A stretch of DNA of 64,000 bases from Maribacter arcticus. GTDB taxonomy: Bacteria; Bacteroidota; Bacteroidia; Flavobacteriales; Flavobacteriaceae. The position numbers were made by a program, and so were the translations under genes. Where the stretch lies: assembly GCF_900167935.1 (NCBI RefSeq), contig NZ_FUYL01000001.1, positions 310,001 through 374,000 of the forward strand. The letters run 5' to 3'. A model generated the notes under the pieces. The model searched no databases and was not told the DNA's origin. It was given only the letters and a program-made list of their open reading frames with translations. Positions 11,788 through 63,720 of the stretch are shown one piece after another (position 1 is the stretch's first letter; every line of letters begins with the position of its first letter).

Positions 11788-12264
11788 TCATGAATTAATT
11801 TTTTCTTTTTTGATAGTGCTAATTTGGTAATTGGGGTTGCCTAAAACTTTTTTCTGTTTTGTTGATTTAAGTATGGACGATAATTTCGCAAAACCTCTTT
11901 CTTTTACAGTTCTATAGTCCAAAAGAAATTGGTTTACCTTTTGGAAGAGTTTTTTGTGTGTCTTCCTATAGGCTTGTTCCATTTCTAATTGATTTACACC
12001 ATCTATCATAATCTCAAGCTGGTTCATATGTTTTTGAACTTGTTTTATGATAGGATTTAATCTTTTTTGGTTTTCTTCTATATCATTTCTGAAATCTTCT
12101 GTTTTCGAAAATTCATTTTTGTCTATTGGTTTAATCGCAAAAGAATGAATTAAGTTAATTAGAAAGCGTTGCTCATCTTTAATAAAAGAAAGTTCTGAAA
12201 ACCACTTTTTAGAATGCTCATGCATATCTTCGGCACTATACGAATCTATATAGGTATATTTCAT
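11788..12264 (-). CDS. helical coiled-coil protein, island family member
   Basis: 158 residues, mostly charged helix, with no signal or membrane segment. The N-terminal SKKWFSELSFIKDEQRFL resembles ESREWLENIAFWKDETKFF of the 43679-44080 protein. Both continue into long heptad-like helices, so they are probably paralogues with a four-helix-bundle-like fold. Function unknown. Its promoter is the operator at 12324 with exact 23-bp spacing to TAAATTAG, placing it in the island regulon. Confidence 0.75.
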   Translation of the reverse strand: MKYTYIDSYSAEDMHEHSKKWFSELSFIKDEQRFLINLIHSFAIKPIDKNEFSKTEDFRNDIEENQKRLNPIIKQVQKHMNQLEIMIDGVNQLEMEQAYRKTHKKLFQKVNQFLLDYRTVKERGFAKLSSILKSTKQKKVLGNPNYQISTIKKEKINS

Positions 12265-12292
12265 TTTCTTGGATTTTTTTTAAATACTGATT

Positions 12293-12335
12293 CTAATTTA
12301 TAGTAATACATGTAAATTGAAAATGACATTGGTCA
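12293..12335 (-). promoter_or_regulatory. CRP/FNR-type promoter for 11788-12264
   Basis: Operator TGACATTGGTCA at 12324-12335, then 23 bp, then TAAATTAG at 12293-12300 on the minus strand; the ATG is 59 bp from the box. Confidence 0.85.
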
Positions 12336-12377
12336 GTTTCTATTGACGTTTAATGGAAAATGTTGTTGTCGTTTAGG

Positions 12378-12791
12378 TTATGTATGTAAAATACCGTCAG
12401 TATAGTTGAAAATTTCTAATTTCAGTTTTTGAAAATTTTCAATACAAGAATCTACTTTGGTTCTTAATTTGTCATGGTTTCGGTAAAAGATTAATTTACA
12501 TTCATTATCGGTGCAGTCTAACATACCACCTAAATTATTCTCATGAATAGAAATATCGCTAAGAAGTTTTTTTTTGGTGCTTTAAATTTTCTTGATACGT
12601 ATTTTGTATTCCTGTTTGCGCTCAAAAAGATTTCGCGTTTTAGGTCGAAAAATTTGGTTATCTAAGAGACGATCTGCTAAAATCAGTTCATCGTCCATGC
12701 TTTGAAAGTGGAATTTCCATTGCTGTGTTTTCCAATGAAGTTCTTTTACTTTCTTGTTCTTTTGATTTGTTCTTATATGTTCTTTTTCCAT
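12378..12791 (-). pseudogene. helical island protein interrupted by one in-frame TAA
   Basis: The first ORF (12582-12791, 69 residues, starting MEKEHIRTNQ) ends at a TAA at 12582-12584. The same frame then continues open to a TAA at 12378-12380, giving STKKKLLSDISIHENN and later LRTKVDSCIENFQKLK. Total 137 codons, with no frameshift. It resembles the 133- and 158-residue helical proteins of this island: a short start, then LHWKTQQWKFHF, a DDEL block and long helices. A single nonsense change (for example GAA to TAA) explains the break. Its promoter is intact. Confidence 0.75.
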
Positions 12792-12810
12792 TATTGTGGA
12801 ATCTATTTAT

Positions 12811-12853
12811 TAAAATTACCAGCCAATAAAAATGCAAACAATGATATAGGTCA
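12811..12853 (-). promoter_or_regulatory. CRP/FNR-type promoter for 12378-12791
   Basis: Operator TGATATAGGTCA at 12842-12853, 23-bp spacer, TAATTTTA at 12811-12818; it stays intact although the gene behind it has a nonsense codon. Confidence 0.82.
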
Positions 12854-13175
12854 GAAACTAAGATTTAAGTAATAATCCTATGTTTCCTTTAATTGTAAAC
12901 TAATTATCTACATAGCAAATACATTTCTTAATTTACGCTACAATGCGCCTAAAGAGTAAACTTTGAATGATTAAGAAATACATTAATAGCGATGGTCAAT
13001 ATATAATTATAACATGGTTCTAATTCATTTAGGGCCACCTAGTACGGCAAATTTCACAACTATTATTTTAATAGTCAAATCAGAAATAGAGTTATAATTG
13101 TATTGACAATCAATAAATTCAATAAGGTTTTAATTCTATAATTCAAATTCCTTTAAACCTCATCATTTTCCATAA

Positions 13176-14015
13176 TTAATGTAAAGCTAAAATAGGAACG
13201 GTAGTATCATATCCTATTTCCTTAACCAAGGGTTTAGAAAAAATGCTGCTGAAGAAAAAGTGCTTACGATTAATAAACGCTATCATATCGCTGTCCCTAC
13301 TTTCGACAAAACCAGTTAAACCATCTGAAACATCTTTTTTAGAGAGTGTATGAAAACTATGGTTTAAGTTCCCCAATATATCTCTTAGTAATTTTTGGTT
13401 ATTCATTTGTTCATCACTCAATTCGGCATTTTTTGATATATATAATACCCGGATTGCAGTGTCGTGCATTTTTGAAATTTCAACTAGATAACCCAATTCT
13501 TTACGTTTAAAGACGGACTTATAATCTGTAGGGAATACGATTTCTTTGGGTAAAGAAAACCGAACATCTTCCGGAACGGCCAAAACAGGGCATTCTCTTA
13601 TTTTCTCCATGGTGTTGACCGTATTGCTACCGAAAATGATACCTTGGCTTTTCGTAGCACCTTGGGTACCCATGACTACTAAATCGATATCTTTTTCAGC
13701 GATGGTCTGCTTTAGGGCATCCGATAAAAAATTAAAGGTAGAAATGGTATGGTACGAATGCTTCGGATTGTCATGATGCAGTTTTAACATATCCAACAGT
13801 TTAACAAAACCTTCTTCCGATTTTGCTTTAGCTGCCTCATATTCCCCGCTACCAGGTTCAGGAATAAATAGGTTGTCGGTACTATAACTATCCAACTTAA
13901 AAACGTTTAAAAAATAAAACTCACAATTTAATTTACTATATAGGTCAAGGGCATACCTTGTGGCGTTAAGGGCATTTTTCGAAAAATCTGTAGGTATTAA
14001 TATTCGCTTATCCAT
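13176..14015 (-). CDS. universal stress protein, tandem UspA domains
   Basis: 279 residues: an N-terminal Usp domain (1-145) beginning DKRILIPTDFSKNA, and a second, degenerate domain (155-279). The first domain keeps the ATP-binding pattern GxxGx9GS (GTQGATKSQGIIFGS, near 115-129); the second lacks it. Cytoplasmic. USPs of this type are made in starvation or low oxygen and bind nucleotide. It is the first of a run of seven USPs down to 21.9 kb with its own operator at 14071. Confidence 0.92.
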   Translation of the reverse strand: MDKRILIPTDFSKNALNATRYALDLYSKLNCEFYFLNVFKLDSYSTDNLFIPEPGSGEYEAAKAKSEEGFVKLLDMLKLHHDNPKHSYHTISTFNFLSDALKQTIAEKDIDLVVMGTQGATKSQGIIFGSNTVNTMEKIRECPVLAVPEDVRFSLPKEIVFPTDYKSVFKRKELGYLVEISKMHDTAIRVLYISKNAELSDEQMNNQKLLRDILGNLNHSFHTLSKKDVSDGLTGFVESRDSDMIAFINRKHFFFSSIFSKPLVKEIGYDTTVPILALH

Positions 14016-14039: not shown

Positions 14040-14082
14040 TAAAAGTATTTGTCGATTTTCTTTTTAACAATGATAATTATCA
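14040..14082 (-). promoter_or_regulatory. CRP/FNR-type promoter for 13176-14015
   Basis: Perfect palindrome TGATAATTATCA at 14071-14082, 23 bp, TACTTTTA at 14040-14047. It overlaps the last codon of the upstream USP gene. Confidence 0.85.
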
Positions 14083-14928
14083 GTCTTGTGCAGGTAGAAT
14101 TAAAAACGGGGTTTCTGAATACATGCTTACATCTTTTATAACCGGCTCACGGGTCAATTTTTCAAAAAGGTTATGTTTTTGATTAACCATTGAATATAGG
14201 TCTACATTCAATTTTTCTAAAAATACTTGAATGACCTTCGCTTTGTCTTTAGACAATTGTCTCCAATGAAAAGTATGGTCGACATCCTTTAGGCAGATAT
14301 CCAACAATTTTCTGTTGGATTCTTGTTCGGTATTTAAAATTTCTTCTTCGGTAATATGCAATACTCTAATCTTAGCTTTAAATAAAGAGGTTATGAATAG
14401 TAAAGGTTCTATTGATTTTTTTGCACACCCTTTCTTGAAATCAGTGACAAAAGCTATTTCTTTAGGTTCCTTGAAATTCATTTCACCAGGAATAGCAAGA
14501 ATGGGACATTTGTTAATTATGTTAGCTACCTGTATCGTATTGCTCCCAAAGAAAATATCAGCTGCCTCGGTAATGCCTTTATTGCCCATAACAACTAAAT
14601 CTATATGCAGTTTATCAATTGTTTTAGTCAAAATCTTAGATAGAATTCCTTTTTCTGATATGGTCTGAAACTGATGTTTCGAGTTATCATTGTCCAATAC
14701 AATTTTATGCATTGTCTTTGTTAATTTTTCCTCAGATTCAATTTGTAGTTTTTTTAGCAGTTTTTCACTAACAAACAATTTTGGTTTTTTTCCTTGTAAA
14801 GGAGTTAGTTCATTGAAAACATTCAATAAATGGAAAGTACAAGGCTGTGATGCCAATAATTTTGTAACATAAAATAGTGCACAGTAGGCATTGTTAGAAA
14901 AATCTGTAGCGACCAGTATATTCTTCAT
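14080..14928 (-). CDS. universal stress protein, tandem UspA domains
   Basis: 282 residues, two Usp domains. Domain 1 starts MKNILVATDFSNNA and keeps an ATP-binding pattern, MGNKGITEAADIFFGS, near 115-130; domain 2 has no glycine motif. It is separated by only 6 bp from the upstream USP (14935-15771), so the two form an operon from the promoter at 15828. Its stop region contains the operator of the next USP downstream. Confidence 0.92.
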   Translation of the reverse strand: MKNILVATDFSNNAYCALFYVTKLLASQPCTFHLLNVFNELTPLQGKKPKLFVSEKLLKKLQIESEEKLTKTMHKIVLDNDNSKHQFQTISEKGILSKILTKTIDKLHIDLVVMGNKGITEAADIFFGSNTIQVANIINKCPILAIPGEMNFKEPKEIAFVTDFKKGCAKKSIEPLLFITSLFKAKIRVLHITEEEILNTEQESNRKLLDICLKDVDHTFHWRQLSKDKAKVIQVFLEKLNVDLYSMVNQKHNLFEKLTREPVIKDVSMYSETPFLILPAQD

Positions 14929-14934
14929 AATATT

Positions 14935-15771
14935 TTAAATTTGAGGTAGTACCATAAAAGGAACGGTAATGTGTAATCCTATTTTTTTAATAATAGGTTC
15001 AATAAACAAGCGTTCTAAAAAAGTGTGTTTATTCTTTACCATCACCAATAGGTTTATCTTTTGTTTTATCTGAAATTCATTGATGGCTTCTATGATACCG
15101 TTATCTGGTAGTTCATGAAACAATGCGTGGTTTCCTAATAATTTTTCAAGCTCTACTTTGTGCTTTTCTTGAATGTTGGTAAGGTCATACCCTGCTCGCA
15201 CGTGCATTACATTTATTCGTGATTTATGTTGTGTGGTAATTGCCAACAAAGTCTGCATATTCCCTTTTTTATATTCAATCTCATAATCGGTAGGGAATAA
15301 TATTTCTTTAGGAGCTTCATAGTCAAAATTTGGTGGAACGGCAATTACGGGGCACTTTGCTTTATTGATTACATGAACGGTATGTGTGCCGAATAAAATT
15401 TCAGTGGCACTGGTAACGCCCTTTGTTCCCATTACTATTACATCTATATTCTCAGCCGTAACCGTTTCTAAGACTTCACTTATTAGTGTATTAAAGGCAG
15501 AATGAACTATGATGGTGTGGTTAGGGTTTGGGAATTGATGCTCTAGCTCGCTTTTCAATTTTTCTAATTGAGTCATACTACTTTCCTGTAGAATATCTCC
15601 TAACCCTATTTGGCCAGGGCTACCAATGAGGTACTCGGTCTGATAAACGGGTGGGGTATAAGTATGAAGCAAATAGAAAGTAGTTTTAACGTCTTTGTAG
15701 ACCTTTAGCGCGTAACGAATTGCTTCTTTGGAGTTATTGGAAAAATCAGTAGGTAAGAGAATTCGTGGCAT
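14935..15771 (-). CDS. universal stress protein, tandem UspA domains
   Basis: 278 residues. Domain 1 begins MPRILLPTDFSNNS with GTKGVTSATEILFGT as the nucleotide-binding loop near 115-129; Thr replaces the usual Ser after the last Gly. Domain 2 is degenerate. It is the first gene of a two-USP operon and shares its operator with the divergent thioredoxin gene. Confidence 0.92.
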   Translation of the reverse strand: MPRILLPTDFSNNSKEAIRYALKVYKDVKTTFYLLHTYTPPVYQTEYLIGSPGQIGLGDILQESSMTQLEKLKSELEHQFPNPNHTIIVHSAFNTLISEVLETVTAENIDVIVMGTKGVTSATEILFGTHTVHVINKAKCPVIAVPPNFDYEAPKEILFPTDYEIEYKKGNMQTLLAITTQHKSRINVMHVRAGYDLTNIQEKHKVELEKLLGNHALFHELPDNGIIEAINEFQIKQKINLLVMVKNKHTFLERLFIEPIIKKIGLHITVPFMVLPQI

Positions 15772-15796: not shown

Positions 15797-15870
15797 TAAA
15801 ATTAGGGCAGTGCAAATCCAATTACCATGACATTGGTCAGTTCGCCAAATTACATTTTAAGGTAATTTTA
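15797..15870. promoter_or_regulatory. bidirectional CRP/FNR-type promoter (USP operon / thioredoxin)
   Basis: One operator, TGACATTGGTCA at 15828-15839, serves both strands. Exactly 23 bp to each side lies TAATTTTA (minus strand 15797-15804, plus strand 15863-15870). The start codons are 56 and 52 bp from the box. The symmetry is good evidence that a dimer bound here activates both ways. Confidence 0.88.
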
Positions 15871-15891: not shown

Positions 15892-16191
15892 ATGAAAAGC
15901 AGTTTTTCTAAAATTATAGATTCAGAAACTCCAGTTCTCGTAGGTTTTTATGCAGATTGGTGTGGACCCTGTAAAATGTTGGGCCCGATTTTAAAACAAG
16001 TAAAAGACGAAATGGGCGAAGCCGTCAAAATAGTCAAAATAGATGTAGATAAAAACCAATCGATAGCTGCAAAATATCAAGTTCGGGGAGTACCCACCAT
16101 GTTATTGTTTAAAAATGGGAAACAGTTATGGCGACAGTCTGGGGTATTGCAAAAGAACGATTTAATTCAAATCGTAAAATCGCATGCCTAA
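15892..16191 (+). CDS. trxA: thioredoxin
   Basis: 99 residues, a single thioredoxin fold. The redox motif WCGPC is near residues 23-27 with the Asp two before it, and the cis-proline loop is GVPTM near 66-70. It reduces protein disulfides in the cytoplasm, and here may feed electrons to the island's ribonucleotide reductase (inference). It is transcribed divergently from a USP operon under the shared operator. It is short at the N-terminus relative to E. coli TrxA but all core elements are present. Confidence 0.93.
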   Translation: MKSSFSKIIDSETPVLVGFYADWCGPCKMLGPILKQVKDEMGEAVKIVKIDVDKNQSIAAKYQVRGVPTMLLFKNGKQLWRQSGVLQKNDLIQIVKSHA

Positions 16192-16296: not shown

Positions 16297-17136
16297 TTAT
16301 TCATGAATTACCAGAAATGGAACAGAAGTATGATAACTAATTTTTTCAACCTTTGGTCTAAAAAGAATTCGCTCTAAGAAATTTAGGTTTTTTGCAACCA
16401 TTACAATCATATCCAAATTGCAACTTTCAACAAAATGTTGAACGGCAACGTCTAGTTTTTTTTCCTTTAGGGTATGAAATGAATAAGTTGTATCGGTAAA
16501 ATAGTCCTTTAAAAATTCACGGTTTTTTATTTGCTCCATACTTAGTTGATCTCCTTTAGAAGTAACATGCAAAAAACGTAGTGCCGATTTATGTAAAAAG
16601 ACAAGCTCTTTTATCCTTTTCATGACCTTGTCATCATACCCTAAAAGAAAATCTGTTGGAAAACCTATTTCTTTTGGGTCGCTATATTTTGCATTTTCTG
16701 GTACTGTTAATACAGCACACGGCACTTTGGTGATAACATTGCCAGTATTGCTGCCTAAAGAAACAGCTTTTATACCCGATGCCCCTTTGGTGCCCATAAT
16801 AATTAAATCAATTTTCTTATCTATTACCTCTTGTTTAATATAATCGGTGAAAAAGCCGGACATAGCTTTGGTTTCAAATGTATGCTTCGTATTAAGAGGT
16901 AATTTTTGAATCTTTTCCAGTAATAATTTTAATTTTTTTCTGCTCTTTTTTAAAATACTTTCTTCAAATATTTCTGGTGGTAAGAACATGGTGCCTTCAC
17001 TACCTGAATTAGGATTGATAGGGTTTACATGAATTAGATAAAAAGAACATTCATTTTTTTTGAATAATGATATTGCATAAACAATTGCATTCCAAGCATT
17101 TTCAGAGAAATCTGTTGGTATCAGTATGTTTTTCAT
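16297..17136 (-). CDS. universal stress protein, tandem UspA domains
   Basis: 279 residues. Domain 1 starts MKNILIPTDFSENA and has GTKGASGIKAVSLGS near 113-127; domain 2 is degenerate. The loop GASGIK and GSNTGNVITKV match the 21082-21918 USP closely, so these two form a subgroup. Own operator at 17188. Confidence 0.92.
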   Translation of the reverse strand: MKNILIPTDFSENAWNAIVYAISLFKKNECSFYLIHVNPINPNSGSEGTMFLPPEIFEESILKKSRKKLKLLLEKIQKLPLNTKHTFETKAMSGFFTDYIKQEVIDKKIDLIIMGTKGASGIKAVSLGSNTGNVITKVPCAVLTVPENAKYSDPKEIGFPTDFLLGYDDKVMKRIKELVFLHKSALRFLHVTSKGDQLSMEQIKNREFLKDYFTDTTYSFHTLKEKKLDVAVQHFVESCNLDMIVMVAKNLNFLERILFRPKVEKISYHTSVPFLVIHE

Positions 17137-17156: not shown

Positions 17157-17199
17157 TAAAAATAACCGCACTTAATGTTTTTAAATATGATAATAATCA
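17157..17199 (-). promoter_or_regulatory. CRP/FNR-type promoter for 16297-17136
   Basis: TGATAATAATCA at 17188-17199, 23 bp, TATTTTTA at 17157-17164. The box overlaps the stop codon of the ROK kinase gene. Confidence 0.82.
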
Positions 17200-18168
17200 T
17201 TCAAGTGCCGTATTCTCTAATTCTAACCAGGCCAAAGCTGCAGGGCCTAACACCGCGTTGGAACTTGTAGCCGTTGACAATAGTACTTTTATTTTGCCCT
17301 TGTAGGCGTTAAATAGATGTTGCTGCATTCGGGTTCTTATAGGTCTTAATAGAATTTCACCTGCCTTGCTCAATCCACCCGATAGTATGAATGCTTCTGG
17401 GTCTAAATGGGCCACAGTATCGGCCATTTTACTTCCTAAGATTTCACCTGTTTTTTCAAAAGCCGTCAGAGCGATAAGATCGCCCTTTAACGCGGCATCC
17501 GAAATATCTGTTCCTCTCATATCCTTAAAACTAATACCACGAAGGGGGGAATCTATCTTCATATCTGCCAATAACTCAAAGACTGTTCTCTTAATTCCTG
17601 TTACCGATGCGTAGGTTTCCAGACAGCCATGTAACCCGCAATTACACTCTCTCCCATTAGGCTCCACATTAACATGACCTATTTCTCCGGCAGCACCGTG
17701 TTCTCCAATTAACAGTTTACCATCTACAATTATTCCACTTCCCAGTCCTGTGCCTAAGGTCAGAGCGACAAAATTTTTCATTCCCTTGGCTGCACCGAAA
17801 ACCATTTCACCTAGAGCGGCAGCATTGGCATCGTTCGCTAGTGAAACAGGTAGATTAAAAGTTTGGTTGATAATCTTTGCTATCGGGGTAGCCTTACCCC
17901 ATTTCAGGTTCGGGGGATTTTCAATTTGCCCTGTGTGCGGATTAGCATTGGGGGCTCCAACACCGATGGAACGTATTTGTATATCAACATCCCATTTTAA
18001 AATCAGTGTTTCCACCTCCAATTTTAGTTTTTCCATAAAGCTTGGAAACGGATTTTGAGCATTGGTTTTGAATATAGTTTTATCAATAATATTCCCTTCT
18101 CTGGTAACAAGACCAACCTTAGTAAGGCTGCCACCAATATCAATACCTAAAACTACCTCTTGTGCCAT
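17197..18168 (-). CDS. ROK family sugar kinase (glucokinase-like)
   Basis: 323 residues. The N-terminal phosphate-binding motif is GIDIGGSLTKVG (residues 7-18), the catalytic Asp lies in LANDANAAALGE near 108, and the ROK zinc cluster appears as CNCGLHGCLE near 178. Full family length. It probably phosphorylates glucose or a related hexose using ATP, feeding glycolysis when respiration is limited (inference). No operator lies in its 160-bp upstream gap, so it may be read from the USP operon at 20045-18328. Confidence 0.92.
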   Translation of the reverse strand: MAQEVVLGIDIGGSLTKVGLVTREGNIIDKTIFKTNAQNPFPSFMEKLKLEVETLILKWDVDIQIRSIGVGAPNANPHTGQIENPPNLKWGKATPIAKIINQTFNLPVSLANDANAAALGEMVFGAAKGMKNFVALTLGTGLGSGIIVDGKLLIGEHGAAGEIGHVNVEPNGRECNCGLHGCLETYASVTGIKRTVFELLADMKIDSPLRGISFKDMRGTDISDAALKGDLIALTAFEKTGEILGSKMADTVAHLDPEAFILSGGLSKAGEILLRPIRTRMQQHLFNAYKGKIKVLLSTATSSNAVLGPAALAWLELENTALE

Positions 18169-18327: not shown

Positions 18328-19182
18328 TTAAGGATGTTCTTCCCAAGTATCCGGTATTACCAAAAAAGGAATTTGGGTATGGTATCCAATAGATTCTACA
18401 TTTGGCTTTACCAAAAACCTATCTAAAAATGAGTGTTTTCTATTCATCATTACCAAAAATCCAGATTGGTGTTCTTCAATATATTCATGGATTGCTTCGG
18501 GCATCAATTTTCCTCTTTCCTCTACGAAAATGGGATTAAGCTTTTTAAAATAATCAGCTAACGCCTTTTTATTCACCTGCTGTTCATCGGCCAAATCATA
18601 CTCCTCCTTTACATGCAATATGGTTAATTTAGATTCAAAAGTATTTGAAAGGTTAAATAAGTATTGTAAATCTTCCTCTTTGTGTAATTGGCCATAATCC
18701 GTTGGAAAAACAATAGATTTTATTTCTTTAAACACATAGCTAACAGGCACGGCCAATACAGGAATTTTTGACTTTCTAATTACATGTACGGTATTTGTTC
18801 CCAAAAAAATCTCCTTGGCACCTGTGGCACCTTGTGTTCCCATTACGATATAATCAAAATTTTTAGCTTCGGTAAGCTCCAAGATTTCATTGGTTAAGGT
18901 GTTAAATGCGGAAAGGGTCTTGAATGTATGTTTTGGGTTTTTATATTTTAGCTTTATATCCACTAAAGTTTTATCGAGACCTGCCTGTGCAATATCTACA
19001 CCTTTATCAGGAAGGGCGCTAAACGTTGGCCCGCCCATCATATAATCTATGCGATAGAAGGTTGGAGTATAGGTATGAAGTATTTGAAATTCGCATTTCT
19101 CAGTTTTAAAAAATTCAAGGGCATAGCAAATGGCGTTCCATGCGTTATTAGAGAAATCGGTAGGCAAGAGAATCTTTTTCAT
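18328..19182 (-). CDS. universal stress protein, tandem UspA domains
   Basis: 284 residues. Domain 1 starts MKKILLPTDFSNNA with GTQGATGAKEIFLGT near 117-131; domain 2 is degenerate. Only 17 bp separate it from the upstream USP 19200-20045, so it is the second gene of that operon. It is most like the 14935-15771 USP (shared TYTP and INVMHV/LTILHV blocks). Confidence 0.92.
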   Translation of the reverse strand: MKKILLPTDFSNNAWNAICYALEFFKTEKCEFQILHTYTPTFYRIDYMMGGPTFSALPDKGVDIAQAGLDKTLVDIKLKYKNPKHTFKTLSAFNTLTNEILELTEAKNFDYIVMGTQGATGAKEIFLGTNTVHVIRKSKIPVLAVPVSYVFKEIKSIVFPTDYGQLHKEEDLQYLFNLSNTFESKLTILHVKEEYDLADEQQVNKKALADYFKKLNPIFVEERGKLMPEAIHEYIEEHQSGFLVMMNRKHSFLDRFLVKPNVESIGYHTQIPFLVIPDTWEEHP

Positions 19183-19199: not shown

Positions 19200-20045
19200 T
19201 TATCTGGGCAAGTTCTGCATGACCAAAAATGGAATTTTAGGATGTAACCCAATATCGTCTAACGTAGATCGGTATAGCATATCTTCTAAAAACGAGTGAC
19301 GAGCATTGACCATAACCAATAGATTAATATCCTTTTCTAAAATGTATTCCATAATAGCCTCGCCTTTATTTTTAACAGGCGAACGTTCATTAAATAGGTA
19401 GGTATCAGGTAAGGATTCTTGTAAAAAACGCTTGTTGTCAATTTGTCTATTAGTTAAATCTTCAAAATCTGAAATATAAAGACAATGTATTTCCGATTTA
19501 AATTCAGCGGCTAGTGTATTTAAGAGTTTAAGTTCTCTACGTTTATAAGGCAACATGTAGTCTGTGGGAAATAGTATCTTTTTAGGTTGTCGATATTCGT
19601 AGTTTTCAGGAATGGCCAAAACCGGACAAGAGACATATTTAAATACCTGTACGGTATGGCTGCCAAACGTAAGCTTTTTGTTTGCAGTCTGGCCTTGAGT
19701 ACCCATAATTAGAAGATCTACATTGATTTGGTTGGCAAAATCATTGACCGCATCGACCAAAGACTCAAAGGCAGATACGGCTTCAAAACTGTGTTTAGGA
19801 TTGTGATATTTTTTGGTAAGTTCGCTTATTGTATTTTTTAGCGACTGTTCCACTTTTATTCGGGTGATTTCTTTTTGCTCTTCTATTGACTTGCCACCGT
19901 TCTTTTTAAAAGGACCGTATATTTCGTCTGCATAGGCATGTAAAAAATAGAAATTAGTGCGTTCGCACTTGTAGAGCTGTATCGCATATTTTATAGCATG
20001 CATAGCATTATTCGAAAAATCGGTAGGAATCAAAACGGTGGTCAT
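19200..20045 (-). CDS. universal stress protein, tandem UspA domains
   Basis: 281 residues. Domain 1 starts MTTVLIPTDFSNNA; the ATP loop is GTQGQTANKKLTFGS. Domain 2 (from about 150, PKKILFPTDYMLP) lacks a loop. First gene of an operon with the USP at 18328 and possibly the ROK kinase, driven by the operator at 20099. Confidence 0.92.
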   Translation of the reverse strand: MTTVLIPTDFSNNAMHAIKYAIQLYKCERTNFYFLHAYADEIYGPFKKNGGKSIEEQKEITRIKVEQSLKNTISELTKKYHNPKHSFEAVSAFESLVDAVNDFANQINVDLLIMGTQGQTANKKLTFGSHTVQVFKYVSCPVLAIPENYEYRQPKKILFPTDYMLPYKRRELKLLNTLAAEFKSEIHCLYISDFEDLTNRQIDNKRFLQESLPDTYLFNERSPVKNKGEAIMEYILEKDINLLVMVNARHSFLEDMLYRSTLDDIGLHPKIPFLVMQNLPR

Positions 20046-20067: not shown

Positions 20068-20110
20068 TAAAAATATTTCTATCATAACTTAATTAAAATG
20101 ATATAAGTCA
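20068..20110 (-). promoter_or_regulatory. CRP/FNR-type promoter for 20045-18328 operon
   Basis: TGATATAAGTCA at 20099-20110, 23 bp, TATTTTTA at 20068-20075; ATG 54 bp from the box. Confidence 0.85.
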
Positions 20111-20146
20111 TCAGTGTTGAGAAAGAAAAAAAAGGAATATAGTATT

Positions 20147-20998
20147 TTACCCTTGAAGCGATAAAAGTGGAATGCTAGTGTCAAAGCTTACCTCTTCTAC
20201 CGTGGTATCTAAAAATAATTTCTGAAAGAGATTATAATCCTTTGAAATCATTATAATGAAATTGGCATTCAGGCCTTCTGCGAATGAATGAACACCGTCT
20301 TCTACCTTTCTAGATACTACCCTATGAAAACTGACAGTGTTCATTAATTTTTCCGATAGCCGCTGTGCTAAGTGTTTTTGAAGCACTTCTATTTCCTCTA
20401 AAAGTGGAATTGGAGATTTTGTAACATAAAGTAAGTTGATATGTGCCTTATCTGAAGTAATATAATTTGCTATTTTGTTTAAGGTGGCATCGTCATAGGC
20501 CATCTCAAAATCAACAGGTAGTATCACTTGTTTAAAGCCTTGGAACTTTGCTTTTTTGGGAACCACTAGGGTATCGCATTCCACTTTTGTAATTACATCT
20601 CCCGAACGGGTGCCGGTGAAAAATTCTTTAAGTTCAGAGGCGCCTTGCGTACCCATTATGATGAGATCTATTTCCTTTTCTTGAATATGTTTTCGTATAG
20701 ATGACAAAAAGTAACCTTGTTCGCGAATCGTCGTAAAATGATGATGTTCTTTTTTTGAGGAAATCGACGTTATAAATTTTTCTAAGTCATTTAACTTTTG
20801 ATTGATGGCTTTGGGCTCTAATTCTACTAGAATATTTGTGCCAAACTCATAAGCAGGTTTTTCTGTAAAGTTCGATCCTTCTACATTGACATAAAGGAGG
20901 AAAAAATGGCAAGGAGTTACTTGGAATAAATCCAGTGCATAACGAATGGAATTTTTAGAGTTCTTGGAAAAATCGGTAGGAATTAAAATATTTTTCAT
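20147..20998 (-). CDS. universal stress protein, tandem UspA domains
   Basis: The frame reaches a GTG at 21007, but the ATG at 20998 (MKNILIPTDFSKNS) aligns with every other USP here and is chosen. 283 residues. The nucleotide loop GTQGASELKEFFTGT is near 118-132; the residue after the final Gly is Thr. Domain 2 is degenerate. Own operator at 21053. Confidence 0.9.
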   Translation of the reverse strand: MKNILIPTDFSKNSKNSIRYALDLFQVTPCHFFLLYVNVEGSNFTEKPAYEFGTNILVELEPKAINQKLNDLEKFITSISSKKEHHHFTTIREQGYFLSSIRKHIQEKEIDLIIMGTQGASELKEFFTGTRSGDVITKVECDTLVVPKKAKFQGFKQVILPVDFEMAYDDATLNKIANYITSDKAHINLLYVTKSPIPLLEEIEVLQKHLAQRLSEKLMNTVSFHRVVSRKVEDGVHSFAEGLNANFIIMISKDYNLFQKLFLDTTVEEVSFDTSIPLLSLQG

Positions 20999-21021
20999 CG
21001 GTCTCACTTTTACATTTCAAG

Positions 21022-21064
21022 AAAAATAATGGTGATTTGATCTAAAAACTATGATTTTGATCAG
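21022..21064 (-). promoter_or_regulatory. CRP/FNR-type promoter for 20147-20998
   Basis: TGATTTTGATCA at 21053-21064, 23 bp, TATTTTTC at 21022-21029; the -7 element is one base off the majority form. Confidence 0.7.
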
Positions 21065-21081: not shown

Positions 21082-21918
21082 CTATTCATGAAGTACAAAA
21101 AGAGGTATGGTGGTATGAAAACTTAACTTTTCAATAGTGGTATCGAATAATAACTGATGAAAATAGTTAAGGTTTTTGGCTACCATTGTTAACATTTCTA
21201 TTTTATTATCGGCTACAAAATTTAGAATGGCTTCCTTGACATTCTTATTGTCCACACTTTGGAAATTATGTAAGCAAGAGAATATTTCTTCCAAATAATC
21301 TTGTAAATACTCTTTGTTTTTTTTTTGAGCGTTTGTAAGATGACCGTTGGCTTGTGATACGTTTAAAACATTAAAATTGGCCTTCGAAATTCGCAGCTGT
21401 TCCGAAAGTGTATTTAATATGGGGTGGGTATAAAAGATATTGTAATCAGTAGCGAAAGTGATTTTCTTTGGCTTTTTAATAGGTGCCTTTTCCGGTATTA
21501 CCAATACATTACAGATTACTTTGGTTATTACATCTCCTGTGTTGCTGCCCACTATGGCGGTTTTAATACCTGATGCCCCCTTTGTACCCATAACTATAAG
21601 TTCTATTTTTTTATCATAGACCGTTTTTCTTATAAGATCTATAAAATTCCCATATTCATAAAGAACAATTAAATGGTGTTTTTTGTTGTCGAGTAATTGC
21701 TCGACACGCATAGAAAGAAGGTTGATTTTTTTATTAATGCTAGGTAAGGCTGTCTCTGTAGCAAAAGCAAAAGAATTGCTGTTTACATTAGAGTCCTTTA
21801 AATCGGCAATGTGTAAAATGTAGAAGATACAGTCTTCATTCTTAAAAAAGTGTACGGCATATTCCAGAGCGTTCCAAGAATTGGCTGAAAAACCTGTGGG
21901 GAATAAAATGTTTTTCAT
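21082..21918 (-). CDS. universal stress protein, tandem UspA domains
   Basis: 278 residues. The start MKNILFPTGFSANS has Gly in place of the nearly invariant Asp of the PTDFS block, a change in the ATP-contacting first strand. The loop GTKGASGIKTAIVGS is kept. Domain 2 is degenerate. Sister of the 16297-17136 protein. The Asp-to-Gly change may weaken nucleotide binding (inference). Confidence 0.9.
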   Translation of the reverse strand: MKNILFPTGFSANSWNALEYAVHFFKNEDCIFYILHIADLKDSNVNSNSFAFATETALPSINKKINLLSMRVEQLLDNKKHHLIVLYEYGNFIDLIRKTVYDKKIELIVMGTKGASGIKTAIVGSNTGDVITKVICNVLVIPEKAPIKKPKKITFATDYNIFYTHPILNTLSEQLRISKANFNVLNVSQANGHLTNAQKKNKEYLQDYLEEIFSCLHNFQSVDNKNVKEAILNFVADNKIEMLTMVAKNLNYFHQLLFDTTIEKLSFHTTIPLFVLHE

Positions 21919-21935: not shown

Positions 21936-21978
21936 CAAATATTATACTTGTTACAGAATTTAGATATGATATTTATCA
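21936..21978 (-). promoter_or_regulatory. CRP/FNR-type operator for 21082-21918
   Basis: Operator TGATATTTATCA at 21967-21978, 49 bp from the ATG. The -7 region at 23 bp reads AATATTTG, weaker than the others. Confidence 0.7.
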
Positions 21979-22012
21979 GTTTCATGATTTCTAATTTTGT
22001 GGCCTTCCATAG

Positions 22013-23960: not shown

Positions 23961-23984
23961 ATATCAAATATAAAAGATTACATC

Positions 23985-25334: not shown

Positions 25335-25335
25335 T

Positions 25336-53614: not shown

Positions 53615-54440
53615 AACAAAGTAAAGGCAGAGTACTATTTTTCACCATCTGTTTCACCAAGTCGGGTTGAAAGTATCTTTGATAAAAAGTACTGTCTTTA
53701 CGCTCCAGCATCACTAAAAGGTCAGCTTGGGCATTTTCAATATACCATAGTAAATCCTCAAAAACTGTTTCTGAAAAAACAAGGTCAAATTCCATTTTTG
53801 CATAGCCTACTTTTTCTTTTAGTGTTTCCTTAAACCATTCCATTTGTCCCTCACCATCATATTCATTTCGTGTTGTAATATGTACCACCCTTATTTGTGC
53901 ATCAAATTTTTGTGCGATTTTTGCTAGTTTGGTAATTGCAAAAATATCTGCCTGCTCAAAATCTGTGGCATAGACCATTTTATTCAGTTCTGTCTTTTCT
54001 CCACCTGCAGGTACGACCAATAAAGCACATGGAGATTTTTTTAGGAGTGTTTTCGCTGTGCTACCCAATAATAATTCCTTTAAAACACTTGTACCTTTGG
54101 CGCCGACACATATTAGATCTGCATTAAATTTGATAGCTTTTTCCAAGATACTACTTGAAACAGAAGTACCTTCATATACTACGAAATTCAAATCCATGTA
54201 CATTTCTACAGTATCGAGGTTATGGTCAAAAAAGTTTTTCAATTTGGCCCTGTTTTCAATATATAGTTTTTTCTCCTTTTTTAAATAGCTTACTGTAACT
54301 GTACTTGCCAAAGTAATAGGCATATCAAAAACATGCATGACAATTAGTTTTGCACTGAATTTCTTTGCTAAAGAATATGCAAGTCGTAATGCGGAAACCG
54401 AATTTTCAGAGTAATCAGTGGCGTATAAAATAGTTTTCAT
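53595..54440 (-). CDS. universal stress protein, tandem UspA domains
   Basis: 281 residues. MKTILYATDYSENSVSALRL, the loop GAKGTSVLKELLLGS, and a domain 2 from KMVYATDFEQADIF. Sister of the 50122 USP. Its 3' end overlaps the SDR remnant by 20 bp. Promoter at 54497. Confidence 0.92.
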   Translation of the reverse strand: MKTILYATDYSENSVSALRLAYSLAKKFSAKLIVMHVFDMPITLASTVTVSYLKKEKKLYIENRAKLKNFFDHNLDTVEMYMDLNFVVYEGTSVSSSILEKAIKFNADLICVGAKGTSVLKELLLGSTAKTLLKKSPCALLVVPAGGEKTELNKMVYATDFEQADIFAITKLAKIAQKFDAQIRVVHITTRNEYDGEGQMEWFKETLKEKVGYAKMEFDLVFSETVFEDLLWYIENAQADLLVMLERKDSTFYQRYFQPDLVKQMVKNSTLPLLCFNVGGL

Positions 54441-54465: not shown

Positions 54466-54508
54466 TAAATCTACAGCTACCTCATATTAATGAAAATGAC
54501 TAACGTCA
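54466..54508 (-). promoter_or_regulatory. CRP/FNR-type promoter for 53595-54440
   Basis: TGACTAACGTCA at 54497-54508, 23 bp, TAGATTTA at 54466-54473; ATG at 57 bp. Confidence 0.85.
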
Positions 54509-54528
54509 TAAGAAATATGACTTACTCA

Positions 54529-54571
54529 TGATTTGGGTCATTTGGATTAAGAAGGCACTCCATTACATTTA
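54529..54571 (+). promoter_or_regulatory. CRP/FNR-type promoter for 54707-55225
   Basis: TGATTTGGGTCA at 54529-54540, 23 bp, TACATTTA at 54564-54571. The leader is long (about 130 nt) before the ATG at 54707. Confidence 0.75.
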
Positions 54572-55373: not shown

Positions 55374-55503
55374 AGCACTGGTATTTCGTTTTTTTAGATA
55401 ATAGTTAAGAGGTATTTAGGAATGCATGATAGGATAAAAGGGGAAAATGAATAATTGGTTAAGATTTATTGTCCGCTTGCTAACTAACAAATTCTAATAC
55501 TAC

Positions 55504-55546
55504 TGATTTTTATCATTTTATAAATTTATCATAATCCTTAGTTTTA
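55504..55546 (+). promoter_or_regulatory. CRP/FNR-type promoter for 55586-56275
   Basis: TGATTTTTATCA at 55504-55515, 23 bp, TAGTTTTA at 55539-55546. Confidence 0.83.
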
Positions 55547-56275: not shown

Positions 56276-56655
56276 ATATCATTGAACTACTCATCAATAA
56301 TAAGCCATTTCAAAGTTATAGACTATTAAGTATTTCGTTGACTTCTATGTTTATGAGATAATAGTATTGAAAACCGGTGGGTGGATTTCGGCTAATTGTA
56401 TTGTAAATGCATTGCCCTTGCTCAATGGCCGAACTACCTATTTCTTGTATTTGGGTGGGATTATTATAGATTAGGTAAAAAATGAACGTATTATAAAAGG
56501 ATGATATAGAGCAAACTCAATTGGGGGCGAATTTTCCCCGTTTTATATTATGTGCTTTTTTCATCATCACCGTTTGAATTTTTCATTCTCTACGGAATAC
56601 AGGGTTACTTATCTATTAGGGTTTCAAAACAATTTCAATAGAATTGGTCTTAACA
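56276..56655. other. gene-free stretch with an unassigned minus-strand frame
   Basis: A minus-strand frame without ATG, open from about 56522 to a TAA near 56325, reads like protein (IQEIGSSAIEQGQCIYNTIS is part of it), but I recognise no family and see no start. It may be a gene fragment. Nothing else found apart from the operator at 56656. Confidence 0.3.
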
Positions 56656-56667
56656 TGATGCAGGTCA
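56656..56667 (+). promoter_or_regulatory. CRP/FNR-type operator for 56718-57122
   Basis: TGATGCAGGTCA, 51 bp from the ATG at 56718, with TATTTTG at 24 bp. Its position inside the longer upstream frame shows that the earlier ATGs are not used. Confidence 0.78.
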
Positions 56668-56717
56668 TTTCAAATTTCTTCATCATACTTTTATTTTGTT
56701 ATTTAAATTTTAAAGTG

Positions 56718-57662: not shown

Positions 57663-58469
57663 TTATTGATTTTCAGGAAGTACCAAGAGTGGTACGCGGG
57701 TCATAAAAGTCATATTTTTAATAATTGGTTCGCGTACCATTTTTTCAAAAAATCCATGTTTGGTTTTTAGAAAGGTGACCATGCCGATGTTCTTATATTG
57801 TTTTTCTAAATCTTTTAGTGTTGACGACACCGAATTCTTTTTTTTAACCTGTATAAATCGATGCTTAGTGTCGTTTAGGTGATTTTGAAGCAATTCTTTG
57901 TTTGATTTTTGAATGTTTTCAAGTTCGTTTTTTGAATTGATGTATACAATGTTTATGATTGAATCCCAAAGGGAGGATATCTTAATCAGCGGTGTTAATT
58001 CAAGAGGAGTGAATGCATGTTTATAATCGCTTGCAAAAAGAATATCATCAGGTATGTCATAATCATATTCGCCGGGTACGGCAATGATAGGGCAATTATC
58101 AATATATTTTATAACACTGGTAGTAACGCTTCCCATAAAGATTTCCTTTAATGCTGAAGACCCCTTCGTACCCATAAAAACATAATCGATTTCTTTTTCA
58201 GCTATAGTTTTTTCTATACCACCCAAAGCTGTATCGGTCAACAATACGTTTTCAAACGTATGTTTTGCATTCTTCATTGCCTCTAGTCTTTTTTGTAGTA
58301 GTTCTAAAGCGTTACCTGCATCTACTTTAGTACCTGTTTCAGAGGGTACAATGTAATAGGCATGTAATAGGTAAAAAGTACACGGCTCCCGCTCAAATAG
58401 ATAAGCAGCATATTCGATAGCATTTTGTGCTATTTCTGAAAAATCGGTGGGTAGCAATATTTTGTACAT
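57663..58469 (-). CDS. universal stress protein, tandem UspA domains
   Basis: 268 residues, the shortest of the twelve. MYKILLPTDFSEIAQNAIEY, loop GTKGSSALKEIFMGS near 100-114, domain 2 from DIPDDILFASDYKH. Closest to the 13176/14080 type by overall pattern. Own promoter at 58515. Confidence 0.92.
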   Translation of the reverse strand: MYKILLPTDFSEIAQNAIEYAAYLFEREPCTFYLLHAYYIVPSETGTKVDAGNALELLQKRLEAMKNAKHTFENVLLTDTALGGIEKTIAEKEIDYVFMGTKGSSALKEIFMGSVTTSVIKYIDNCPIIAVPGEYDYDIPDDILFASDYKHAFTPLELTPLIKISSLWDSIINIVYINSKNELENIQKSNKELLQNHLNDTKHRFIQVKKKNSVSSTLKDLEKQYKNIGMVTFLKTKHGFFEKMVREPIIKNMTFMTRVPLLVLPENQ

Positions 58470-58483: not shown

Positions 58484-58526
58484 TAAAAGTACTGTTGGCA
58501 ATTATGCAAAACCATGATATTGGTCA
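58484..58526 (-). promoter_or_regulatory. CRP/FNR-type promoter for 57663-58469
   Basis: TGATATTGGTCA at 58515-58526, 23 bp, TACTTTTA at 58484-58491; ATG 46 bp from the box. Confidence 0.85.
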
Positions 58527-58675
58527 GTCAGCTAAAAGGGATGATGATTTGGTTTTAAGGTTTACATGATGTTGCCTAATAAGATAAAGTGAACCTCCTC
58601 ATTTTGGGTAAGGTGAAAAATCATTAAGTTTATGATTATGTTATTTTTTTTTCAACATGACTAAAAAATTAAATA

Positions 58676-59041: not shown

Positions 59042-59091
59042 AACTACTTATAGTATCTATCACCAACATTTTTTAAAATTAAATCATGGAC

Positions 59092-59135
59092 TGACCAATG
59101 TCATTTTTATACTTTTTATTTAGGGGTAGATTTAT
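59092..59135 (+). promoter_or_regulatory. CRP/FNR-type promoter ahead of the AI-2E transporter
   Basis: TGACCAATGTCA at 59092-59103, 24 bp, TAGATTTA at 59128-59135. The leader to 59338 is long. It contains only a 22-codon frame at 59213 (MTITKDLNERKKANDF) whose reality is unclear. Confidence 0.68.
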
Positions 59136-61782: not shown

Positions 61783-61999
61783 GAAACCAAGTCACCGCAG
61801 TAACCTGGTTTCTAAGAAGATGATATTTCACCAATTTACGCTTACACTGACTCTTATTTGTGCTTATTGCTAAACCAAAATAGAATTCAAACGGTCTAAA
61901 TGGTTACGTGCAACCTTCTTCTTTTTAAATTGAACCCTGGTTCCCCCGAACAAGATTCAAATGACTATTAATTTCAAAGAACATTATTATTGTTGATGA
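61783..61999 (-). ncRNA. hairpin-ended RNA unit 1 of locus B
   Basis: Predicted start near 61999, after TAATTTAG. Terminal hairpin 61783-61812 (GAAACCA.GT pairs with ACCTGGTTTC) preceded by CATCTTCTTAGAAACC, as in locus A unit 1. It contains GGTTTAGCAATAAG and AGAAGAAGGTT. A 19-codon ORF at its 5' end (MFFEINSHLN) is not conserved in locus A. Confidence 0.55.
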
Positions 62000-62004
62000 T
62001 GATG

Positions 62005-62047
62005 CTAAATTAAGGCAAGCATGACATCTTCAAAATGACCTAGGTCA
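62005..62047 (-). promoter_or_regulatory. CRP/FNR-type promoter of RNA locus B
   Basis: TGACCTAGGTCA at 62036-62047, 23 bp, TAATTTAG at 62005-62012; the same 12-mer as locus A. The box contains the stop codon (TGA, 62045-62047 on the minus strand) of the PDZ frame. Confidence 0.87.
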
Positions 62048-62362
62048 GTTTGGTGAAAATTTTTCAGTTTTAGGAATTTTTAGAGCCAAATTCATGATTT
62101 TTCCCTTTCTTAAAATGATGGCTTTTAAGGTGTCACCGAATTTAAGGTTATGTATAACTGACCAAGCCTTTGTAAGATTTTTTTCATTCGTTAATGGTAT
62201 ATTGTTAAAAGTTAATAAAACAACGCCACCAACATCTAATTGATTTCCCTCAATATTTAGTTGATAGAATGCCCCCCCCCCCCTTAAGCCTAGGTTATCT
62301 CCTGAATATTTTGGTGAAAGGTCTTTTGTTGTTGTAAAAACTACTAAAAAATAGAGGGTAAT
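62045..62362 (-). pseudogene. PDZ-domain fragment with a 12-G tract
   Basis: Open minus-strand frame of 106 codons without a usable start, bounded upstream by a TGA at 62363-62365. It reads KYSGDNLGLR-GGG-AFYQLNI, then VGGVVLLTFNNIPLTNEKNL and LKFGDTLKAIILRKGK: an HtrA-type PDZ (GLR.., VLLTFNN.., FGDTLK..ILRKGK). A run of 12 G (62272-62283) encodes the RGGG; in this sequence it keeps the frame. The protease or membrane part is missing. A truncated relic or, less likely, the end of a slippage-controlled gene. Confidence 0.6.
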
Positions 62363-62418
62363 TCATGAATATCTACAAGTTGGTAAAACGAATTTTATAG
62401 ACTAATATTTTTTCTTAC

Positions 62419-63060
62419 TTAAAGATCAAGTGTCTTTTTAGAATTGGTTTTCTCTAGTATTTGTATGGCTTTTTGATCGGTAACTTGTTCGAAATTTTTG
62501 TAAAACTGACCAACTGCCCTAAAATTATCAGGTATTAATATACAGATGACTTCATCTACATTTTCGGTATTCGATATTTTATAGATTGCAGAAGCAGGAG
62601 CAACAGGTATGGCTATTATAATTTTAGATGGATTTTGTTTGTATACTAGTTCTATAGTCGCCAACAAGGTATTTCCGGTCGCGACACCGTCATCTACTAT
62701 AATTATCGTCTTGTTCTTCAGGTTGGCTGGAGATTGATGCTTGTAGTATTGATTGTACCGCTCTCTCAGTGTTTTTCGAATACGAGCGGTCTCTTGGTCA
62801 ATATAACTTTTTTCTATTCCCATGGCATTGGTCAAGACGATGCTTTCTAGACTAATGGCACCAATAGCATATTCTTTATTAGTAGGGTAACCTATTTTTT
62901 TAGTTAACACTACATCTAAAGGGGCTTGTAAGCTCTTTGCTACTTGTGCTCCTACAGGTAATCCGCCTCTGGGTATTGCTAAAACCACTACATTTTCTTC
63001 TTTGAATTTAGTTAATTTCTTAGCCAGTTGTGTTCCTGCATCATTTCTATCTTCAAACAT
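62419..63060 (-). CDS. phosphoribosyltransferase
   Basis: 213 residues. PRGGLPVGAQVA near 29, the basic block LTKKIGYPTNKEYAIGA near 52, and the PRPP-binding loop IIIVDDGVATGNTLL near 120. Type I PRTase fold, base substrate unknown. Six bp after the hydrolase gene, same operon. In Mycobacterium Rv0571c, a DosR gene, the two domains form one polypeptide. Confidence 0.9.
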   Translation of the reverse strand: MFEDRNDAGTQLAKKLTKFKEENVVVLAIPRGGLPVGAQVAKSLQAPLDVVLTKKIGYPTNKEYAIGAISLESIVLTNAMGIEKSYIDQETARIRKTLRERYNQYYKHQSPANLKNKTIIIVDDGVATGNTLLATIELVYKQNPSKIIIAIPVAPASAIYKISNTENVDEVICILIPDNFRAVGQFYKNFEQVTDQKAIQILEKTNSKKTLDL

Positions 63061-63066
63061 GGGTTT

Positions 63067-63720
63067 TCATTTTTTGTTCATCATATGTTTAGTGAACCAC
63101 GATGCCGATATTCGCGCAACCGCCTCCAATTTTCCAGGTTCCTCGAACAAATGGGTTGCATTTGGTATAATTTCCAATTTCTTTTCACATTGTAGTTTTT
63201 GATAAGCCTTTTCATTGAGTTCGATGACAACATCGTCCCAACCTCCAACGATTAACAAGGTAGGAGCGGTTACTTTATCCAAATCTTTGAGTACAAGGTC
63301 AGGTCGACCGCCTCTTGAAATAATACTTTTTATGTCGGCATCAAAGAATGCCGCAGCCTTCAAAGCAGATGCGGCTCCAGTACTTGCTCCAAAATATGCT
63401 ATTGGTAAGTTTTGAATTTCTTTTGTATGTTGAGCCCATTGCGTTACATCTATAAGACGAAGTGTGAGTAAATCGATATTGAATCGATTTTCGTAGATTT
63501 TGTCTTCATCTTCCGTTAATAGGTCAAAGAGCAAAGTGGCCAAGTGATTTTTTTGTAAAACCTCGGCAACATAGTTATTACGGGGACTAAGGCGACTGCT
63601 ACCACTTCCATGCGAAAAAACGACTAAACCAATTGGATTTTGGGGTACAACCAGATTTCCTTTAAGTATCACCCCGTTTATCTGTATGCTTACGGTTCTA
63701 TGGTTAAACTCGTTTTTCAT
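63067..63720 (-). CDS. dienelactone hydrolase-like alpha/beta hydrolase
   Basis: 217 residues. It starts around MKNEFNHRTVSIQINGVILK. FSHGSGSSRLSPRNNYVAEV forms the oxyanion loop; the nucleophile Ser lies in YFGASTGAASAL near 113 (GASTG). The acid is in GGWDDVVIE and the His in NATHLF near 191. Family members hydrolyse small esters or lactones. First gene of the operon with the PRTase, promoter at 63777. Confidence 0.88.
   Translation of the reverse strand: MKNEFNHRTVSIQINGVILKGNLVVPQNPIGLVVFSHGSGSSRLSPRNNYVAEVLQKNHLATLLFDLLTEDEDKIYENRFNIDLLTLRLIDVTQWAQHTKEIQNLPIAYFGASTGAASALKAAAFFDADIKSIISRGGRPDLVLKDLDKVTAPTLLIVGGWDDVVIELNEKAYQKLQCEKKLEIIPNATHLFEEPGKLEAVARISASWFTKHMMNKK

Follow-up and report, generated by a model that had tools for sequence, protein, structure and literature searches.

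In rhizobia and other bacteria the FixL-FixJ-FixK pathway connects a heme-PAS kinase, a receiver and a CRP output to targets that include cbb3 oxidase and HemN, and the Anr/FNR regulons of Proteobacteria reach universal stress proteins (USPs), HemN and cbb3 oxidase through operators of the form TTGAT/ATCAA. DosR has a LuxR/NarL-type helix-turn-helix output, and the genes of its regulon are scattered over the chromosome. The closest known system to the locus described here is lxa of Burkholderia cenocepacia which, in the available part of its description, clusters 50 genes, among them six for USPs and others for phosphofructokinase, a BON protein and a heat-shock/alpha-crystallin protein, is compared with DosR, and has the CRP-family protein BCAM0049/FixK as its potential regulator; Anr-controlled USPs are mentioned in the same text (PMC6127331). 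The mycobacterial DosR regulon includes hspX, USPs, pfkB, nrdZ, ctpF and Rv0571c in the portions of the literature consulted (PMC4090907, PMC3095998), and Myxococcus NmpRSTU is described, in the accessible part of its report, as a two-component oxygen regulon with a USP, a P-type ATPase plus cbb3, HemN and a heme-dependent sensor kinase (PMC11841059). Here we analyse a 64-kb stretch of the 4.2-Mb genome of Maribacter arcticus (the window; contig C8, 310001-374000), in which stress-family genes and 12 USPs are gathered within 52 kb around a response regulator that fuses a receiver to a CRP module (REC-CRP). With a probability of roughly 0.8, we read this island as one of three places in the genome where a low-oxygen survival regulon is physically clustered, a regulon in which signals would pass from histidine kinases through REC-CRP proteins to a single operator type.

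A preliminary description of the DNA had proposed a DosR-like dormancy island, and domain scans (Pfam on 40 of the 57 called window genes, NCBIfam for some) confirm its Hsp20, PfkB, class II ribonucleotide reductase (RNR), P-type cation ATPase, phosphoribosyltransferase (PRTase), alpha/beta hydrolase, HPF, thioredoxin and PEP synthase, with the proviso that simple open reading frame (ORF) calling may have displaced gene starts. The RNR is assigned to class II by the NrdJ_Z model (655.7 bits; NCBIfam cut-off 399.95), and HPF scores above its Pfam cut-off (55.4 vs 23.7) but below that of NCBIfam (37 vs 40.9). The USPs do number twelve, yet they are not the tandem array that had been described: eight form a single cluster at 13176-21918, with the thioredoxin and a ROK kinase in between, and four are dispersed. 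The PRTase and the presumed dienelactone hydrolase (DLH) adjoin as two unfused genes, and the hydrolase matches the DLH model weakly (19.6 bits, cut-off 21). Families like those of hspX, USP, pfkB, nrdZ, ctpF and Rv0571c, a part only of the published DosR table, are represented in the island, and its control looks like that of a two-component system; the DosR members narX, narK2, tgs1, acg and hrp1, taken from the available part of that table (PMC4090907), were not found among the 40 Pfam-scanned genes. The island further differs from DosR in its clustering, in the separate PRTase and hydrolase genes and in a regulator whose output is HTH_Crp_2 rather than LuxR/NarL-type; with gene sets that overlap partly and a different regulator family, the analogy is functional and not one of membership. 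With lxa, as far as it is described in the part consulted, the island shares clustered USPs, Hsp20, a BON protein and a phosphofructokinase, and it differs in the REC-CRP fusion encoded within the island together with LOV- and FixL-type kinases, in its twelve USPs, B12 RNR and HPF, in phylum, and in an operator and -7 geometry of its own.

A palindromic half-site search found intergenic ATGA-N6-TCAT enriched in the window (14 vs 0.8 expected from coding density). The pattern MTGAY-N4-RTCAK occurs at 34 sites, all at or beyond position 11788 and none in 1-11787, where 200 Markov-1 simulations averaged 0.985 sites and never exceeded 6 and the backward pattern matched once; the earlier claim of one operator type across the island is borne out, with the site at 63776-63789 falling barely beyond the island end of 63720 that had been set. 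A -7 box (TAnnTT) stands exactly 22 nt from the operator at 31 of the 34 sites, three of them bidirectional, and all 23 operators located 45-80 bp upstream of a start codon have a fixed downstream A and TT. Because the pattern had been derived from the window, other genomes served as a test: 40 REC-CRP loci of relatives hold 256 operators in 793 kb (backward pattern 4), as against 9 in 400 kb for 20 hand-picked, non-random control stretches from 20 of the 36 genomes that yielded the 40 loci. At 190 sites 45-80 bp upstream of a start codon, taken from the other islands of the genome as well as from relatives, TAnnTTTG occurs 48 times at the exact offset and at most once at any other offset, and among 580 operator-strand pairs (window plus 40 loci) TA..TT follows the 22-nt spacer in 261, no other spacer between 10 and 40 reaching more than 15. 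Simple operator counts had a high background, both for ATGAYN4RTCAT across the genome (55 forward vs 30 control) and for ATGAYN4RTCAK over 249 genomes, and were therefore dropped in favor of a composite promoter pattern of operator, 22-nt spacer and -7 box. This pattern gives 72 matches genome-wide compared with 2 backward, and the window accounts for 34 of the 72. With the initial T of the -7 box placed at -12, the operator would be centred at -41.5, and class II activators of the CRP/FNR type have operators centred near -41.5; the fixed spacer would thus fit such a site. The T-rich downstream edge of the operator coincides with the expected position of the -33 element.

The likely regulator of the island, P0001, is not the plain CRP protein that the preliminary description suggested, although its output is indeed of the CRP type: a receiver precedes the cNMP-binding and HTH_Crp modules, so that the contrast drawn with DosR holds for the output (CRP, not LuxR) while the protein still looks like part of a two-component system. 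It has the cNMP-binding fold, the HTH_Crp domain and the ExxxR recognition helix, a motif we take to be a mark of the CRP/FNR family, and its closest named relative is from Maribacter orientalis (92% identity). All 59 aligned rows retain the phospho-acceptor Asp and the conserved Lys; among these rows is L018_2, which fails to align in the recognition helix, is probably no REC-CRP and was left out of the 58-row tree. In that tree 17 window-type proteins form one group (100/100) and the copies on contigs C16 and C20 fall in another. The genome encodes three REC-CRPs, each adjoining a USP island (at the two islands outside the window as a kinase/REC-CRP pair), and one FNR-like protein, and the recognition helix is nearly identical across the four CRP-type regulators compared. 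A decayed REC-CRP remnant lies between USP8 and the kinase HK1, at a position where three relatives (L053, L055 and L057) have an intact REC-CRP next to the kinase. Among the open-access papers that our searches listed, none deals with such REC-CRP regulators in Bacteroidetes.

The putative mechanism begins with histidine kinases that would read oxygen through a FixL-type heme PAS domain; part of them would also use a LOV domain to sense light or flavin redox. Low oxygen (light or flavin redox for some kinases) would raise kinase activity, and the kinases would phosphorylate the REC-CRP response regulators, which would bind the operator at about -41.5 and recruit RNA polymerase as class II activators; the stand-alone FNR-like protein would use the same operator. 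Such a pathway would resemble FixL-FixJ-FixK with the FixJ receiver and the FixK CRP output merged in one protein: a heme-PAS kinase, a receiver, a CRP output and cbb3/HemN targets are found in Maribacter too, whereas the fusion of two steps and the LOV domain of some kinases set it apart. With Anr/FNR regulons it shares a CRP/FNR family activator, the TGA...TCA half-site core and USP, HemN and cbb3 targets, but not the operator, here ATGAY/RTCAT, the receiver-fused regulators or the Bacteroidetes -7 box. The targets would save energy and protect the cell upon oxygen exhaustion, with USPs, Hsp20, HPF, PEP synthase/PfkB, the B12-dependent RNR and the cation ATPase in the island, and cbb3 oxidase and HemN elsewhere in the genome serving the same purpose. 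The operator upstream of HK2 and its REC-CRP makes autoregulation possible.

Window units behind the promoter include USPs, thioredoxin, HPF/USP9, Hsp20/P-ATPase, PEP synthase/PfkB, hydrolase/PRTase and BON genes, among others; outside the window it is found at the two further USP islands (C16 and C20), ccoNO of cbb3 oxidase, HemN, the stand-alone FNR-like gene and lone USPs. cbb3 oxidase and HemN are classical oxygen-limitation genes. Both also belong to the oxygen regulon of Myxococcus, according to the accessible part of its description (PMC11841059). In another genome (L084) a kinase/REC-CRP pair directly adjoins a cbb3 cluster, and ccoNO there is 83% identical to that of Maribacter. On this sequence evidence low-oxygen control of the regulon is well supported, and from it we would expect induction of the island genes by oxygen limitation and a role in dormancy.

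The sensors carry marks of two kinds. The best PDB sequence matches of the first PAS domain of HK1 are the heme domains of FixL and DosP, and HK1 carries both the heme-ligand His and the distal Arg, positions whose roles we assume from FixL; across the FixL-type clade to which such kinases belong the His is present in 24 of 24 and the Arg in 17 of 24, and these kinases would bind heme and respond to oxygen. The LOV domain of HK2 matches many blue-light receptor LOV domains among its PDB sequence matches and has the adduct Cys and the flavin-contact residues C, Q, R, N, N and Q (which, with GxNCxFLQ, we take to be the LOV signature), the residue after the Cys being Gln and not Arg; HK2 is possibly a light or flavin-redox sensor. 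By our count from the alignment table, 14 of the 17 kinases of the window type have the adduct Cys, HK2 being one of the 14. In the FixL-type clade the Arg is lost in all five LOV-bearing kinases (L011, L082, L085, L090, L091) and kept in 17 of 19 without LOV (Fisher p = 0.0005, ignoring kinship), and this suggests that oxygen sensing has been swapped for light or redox sensing among the kinases. The frequent adduct Cys and the linked loss of the Arg would also be expected if the regulon answered blue light, flavin redox or general stress instead of oxygen, with the LOV kinase as main input; we consider this quite unlikely, as the same promoter stands upstream of the oxygen-limitation genes for cbb3 oxidase and HemN and every kinase of the FixL-type clade (24 of 24) retains the heme-ligand His.

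The co-occurrence check proposed in the preliminary description was made on 249 genomes of the family, taken as Flavobacteriaceae, with presence thresholds of E 1e-40 for REC-CRP and E 1e-45 for FNR-like proteins. REC-CRP matches occur in 113 of the 249, a figure that includes G071, G101 (sole match has an internal stop) and G194 (partial match), and in a phylum-wide sample in 35 of 218 genomes, all 35 within the same class or closer. Composite promoters reach a median of 28.5 per genome where both regulators are present (n=68); the median falls to 16 in genomes that have REC-CRP but no FNR-like protein (n=45), to 10 in the converse case (n=88) and to 1 where both are missing (n=48). USP matches have a median of at least 14 in the 113 genomes with REC-CRP, per-genome counts being capped near 15 and lower bounds there, compared with 5 in the 136 without; the exceptions are 10 of the 113 with at most 5 USPs and 12 of the 136 with at least 10. 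These counts bear on a reading in which the promoters answer mainly to the FNR-like protein, their true master, while REC-CRPs compete for its sites and have a minor modulating role. The shared recognition helix, the promoters upstream of its own gene and by the cbb3 genes, and the excess of promoters in FNR-like-only genomes over genomes with neither regulator are all in its favor. We nevertheless hold it to be improbable, since REC-CRP alone goes with more promoters than the FNR-like protein alone and both together with more still, USPs occur in 23 of 40 regulator loci vs 3 of 20 controls, and both other USP islands of the genome own a REC-CRP.

The same loci show Hsp20 in 19 and a P-ATPase in 16, against 0 controls for each. 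RNR, PEP synthase and PfkB recur rarely (2, 3 and 4 of the 40 loci, in 20-kb stretches), and the full set of the window is therefore not a fixed package; exact gene order also varies between genomes. Rare recurrence and shifting order are what one would see if the stress genes of a single strain had come together by chance, the alternative that had been named as refuting, but the recurrence of USP, Hsp20 and P-ATPase relative to controls contradicts it for the core set, as does the operator enrichment, and we regard it as practically dismissed: neighborhoods of kinase, REC-CRP, operator and USP recur, and genomes with REC-CRP are richer in promoters and USPs. Far more tentatively than for the Maribacter island itself, at somewhat under even odds, we propose a family-wide one-step route from FixL- or LOV-type kinases to REC-CRP, with interchangeable heme and LOV kinases that would read oxygen and blue light or flavin redox, respectively, and would have been repeatedly swapped, one class II operator and a DosR-like survival regulon of tens of promoters.

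Several observations weigh against the low-oxygen regulon as we read it. HK2, which stands beside the intact window regulator, has no heme His, and the oxygen-type HK1 has no intact partner next door; the sequences do not reveal at which promoters each of the three REC-CRPs and the FNR-like protein would act. Two of the 40 regulator loci are operator-free and two more have a single operator, 4 of the 48 genomes with neither regulator hold 11 to 28 promoters, and the species comparisons ignore kinship. The operator code is moreover not general, as the 22-nt spacing was not seen in other-family loci. Sixteen loci belonging to other families in the class (L112-L127), one of which (L119) has no REC-CRP call in the ORF scan, hold 26 operators in 320 kb vs 2 backward, and a code common to the whole class finds no support in them, the 22-nt spacing occurring in 2 of 52 operator-strand pairs. 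REC-CRPs have PAS kinases as neighbors in these loci as well; a FixL-like motif is present in part of these kinases, and in L116 and L123-L126 the motif of the adjoining kinases is very close to that of FixL itself.

The features of the island are collected in Table 1.

Table 1. Genes, regulators and operator sites of the island, in window coordinates; Pfam and NCBIfam denote domain support, and -7 boxes lie at 22 nt from the operator.
Feature	Position	Strand	Remarks
USP1	13176..14015	-	
USP2	14080..14928	-	
USP3	14935..15771	-	
Thioredoxin (Trx)	15892..16191	+	Pfam
USP4	16297..17136	-	
ROK-family kinase	17197..18168	-	Pfam
USP5	18328..19182	-	
USP6	19200..20045	-	
USP7	20147..21007	-	Pfam too
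USP8	21082..21918	-	
REC-CRP remnant	21977..22431	-	decayed C-terminal and N-terminal parts between USP8 and HK1; tblastn best E 2e-13
HK1, histidine kinase with FixL-type heme PAS	22449..23960	-	Pfam; no intact regulator adjoining
USP9	24504..25361	-	overlaps HPF gene on same strand; Pfam too
HPF-type ribosome hibernation factor	25336..25683	-	Pfam
DUF2267 protein	25771..26223	+	Pfam
FMN-binding domain protein	27256..27936	+	Pfam
Class II (B12) RNR	28597..30309	-	Pfam, NCBIfam
DUF302 protein	30306..30701	-	overlaps RNR gene; Pfam
Hsp20/alpha-crystallin	33527..33991	+	Pfam
P-type cation ATPase	34111..36771	+	best-scoring models calcium-type, yet below cut-offs; Pfam, NCBIfam
HK2, multi-PAS histidine kinase	37464..40604	+	LOV = PAS at about residues 509-632; Pfam
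REC-CRP response regulator P0001	40576..41649	+	Response_reg + cNMP_binding + HTH_Crp_2; Pfam
orf160	41811..42293	+	adjoins window-type REC-CRP
Three-BON-domain protein	42833..43501	-	Pfam
PfkB	44697..45638	-	Pfam, NCBIfam
PEP synthase	45666..48062	-	Pfam, NCBIfam
USP10	50122..50982	+	Pfam too
Zn-type alcohol/quinone oxidoreductase	52235..53254	+	Pfam
USP11	53595..54440	-	
USP12	57663..58469	-	
Phosphoribosyltransferase	62419..63060	-	Pfam
Alpha/beta hydrolase (DLH-like)	63067..63720	-	Pfam
Operator	12323..12336	-	-7 box; for orf158
Operator	12841..12854	-	-7 box
Operator	14070..14083	-	-7 box; for USP1
Operator	15827..15840	both	-7 boxes in two directions: USP3/USP2, Trx
Operator	17187..17200	-	-7 box; for USP4
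Operator	20098..20111	-	-7 box; for USP6/USP5
Operator	21051..21064	-	-7 box; for USP7
Operator	21966..21979	-	upstream of USP8; without -7 box
Operator	23984..23997	+	between HK1 and orf147; -7 box on orf147 side
Operator	25702..25715	-	-7 box; for HPF/USP9
Operator	27129..27142	-	-7 box; for orf195
Operator	27190..27203	+	-7 box; for FMN-binding gene
Operator	28430..28443	-	-7 box; for zinc-ribbon gene
Operator	31153..31166	-	-7 box; 458 bp upstream of DUF302/RNR
Operator	33334..33347	-	-7 box; for CDP-OH transferase/phosphoesterase
Operator	33446..33459	+	-7 box; for Hsp20/P-ATPase
Operator	37102..37115	+	-7 box; 355 bp upstream of HK2/REC-CRP
Operator	41719..41732	+	-7 box; for orf160
Operator	42798..42811	-	-7 box; nearest called gene on that side is on opposite strand
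Operator	43549..43562	-	-7 box; for BON gene
Operator	43606..43619	unassigned	without -7 box
Operator	48119..48132	-	-7 box; for PEP synthase/PfkB
Operator (second)	48251..48264	-	-7 box; for PEP synthase
Operator	48311..48324	+	-7 box; for orf169
Operator	50055..50068	both	-7 boxes in two directions: USP10; other side geneless
Operator	52167..52180	both	-7 boxes in two directions: DUF2807, oxidoreductase
Operator	54496..54509	-	-7 box; for USP11
Operator	54528..54541	+	-7 box; upstream of gene at 54707
Operator	55503..55516	+	-7 box; for orf229
Operator match	56655..56668	unassigned	within orf190 call, close to 5' end; without -7 box
Operator	58514..58527	-	-7 box; for USP12
Operator	59091..59104	+	-7 box; 367 bp upstream of AI-2E-type transporter gene
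Operator	62035..62048	-	-7 box; 884 bp upstream of orf225
Operator	63776..63789	-	-7 box; for hydrolase/PRTase

Among the genes of the island without a ready name, orf160 adjoins a REC-CRP of the window type in 13 of the 40 regulator loci; its model is confident (pLDDT 90) and it matches no Pfam family. The helical orf147 (24054-24455) is divergent from FixL-type kinases in several genomes. Comparison of both structure models with PDB folds returned nothing at E 0.001, and orf147 resembles 2h5n weakly only (E 1.1). An Archease-family protein lies within the island at 49059-49535, and just outside it, at 432-9384, are operator-free genes that look like sugar metabolism from their translations. 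The window contains zero tRNAs and zero Rfam matches at the gathering score. In another genome (L013:4681-8284), genes for a beta-CASP RNase-like protein, an ATP-cone/Mrr-like protein, an MscS-type channel and a small protein stand beside a USP cluster and recur by size in other loci.

The preliminary description attributed the resemblance to DosR to convergence. The parts of the toolkit are widely distributed families, which counts for a different account, that the island shares parts with DosR and lxa because a stress toolkit was transferred horizontally or inherited from a common ancestor; we think this possible, though somewhat less likely than not. The similar set in Burkholderia, as presented in the available part of its description, is in its favor as well (PMC6127331). 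Going by the same source, as far as available, the notion of CRP/FNR-type control over a cluster like that of DosR is not new. The general idea that related toolkits stand under several regulator classes is already in print, lxa (with its potential CRP-family regulator), DosR and NmpR differing in regulator class, the Myxococcus regulator being, in the part of the report available, NtrC-like with sigma-54 sites and a smaller regulon of seven promoters. What is new, and did not appear among the open-access papers listed, is the putative one-step wiring from FixL/LOV kinases to REC-CRP, together with the operator code.

The finding supplies a concrete regulatory code, made up of operator, spacing, regulators and sensors, for what would be low-oxygen survival in a large marine bacterial group, and suggests that light and oxygen may feed one pathway. 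In the accessible part of one source, Maribacter halichondriae is described as strictly aerobic, and a title cited there has M. thermophilus as facultatively anaerobic (PMC10942906); the group with the putative low-oxygen code includes a genus holding a species described as strictly aerobic.

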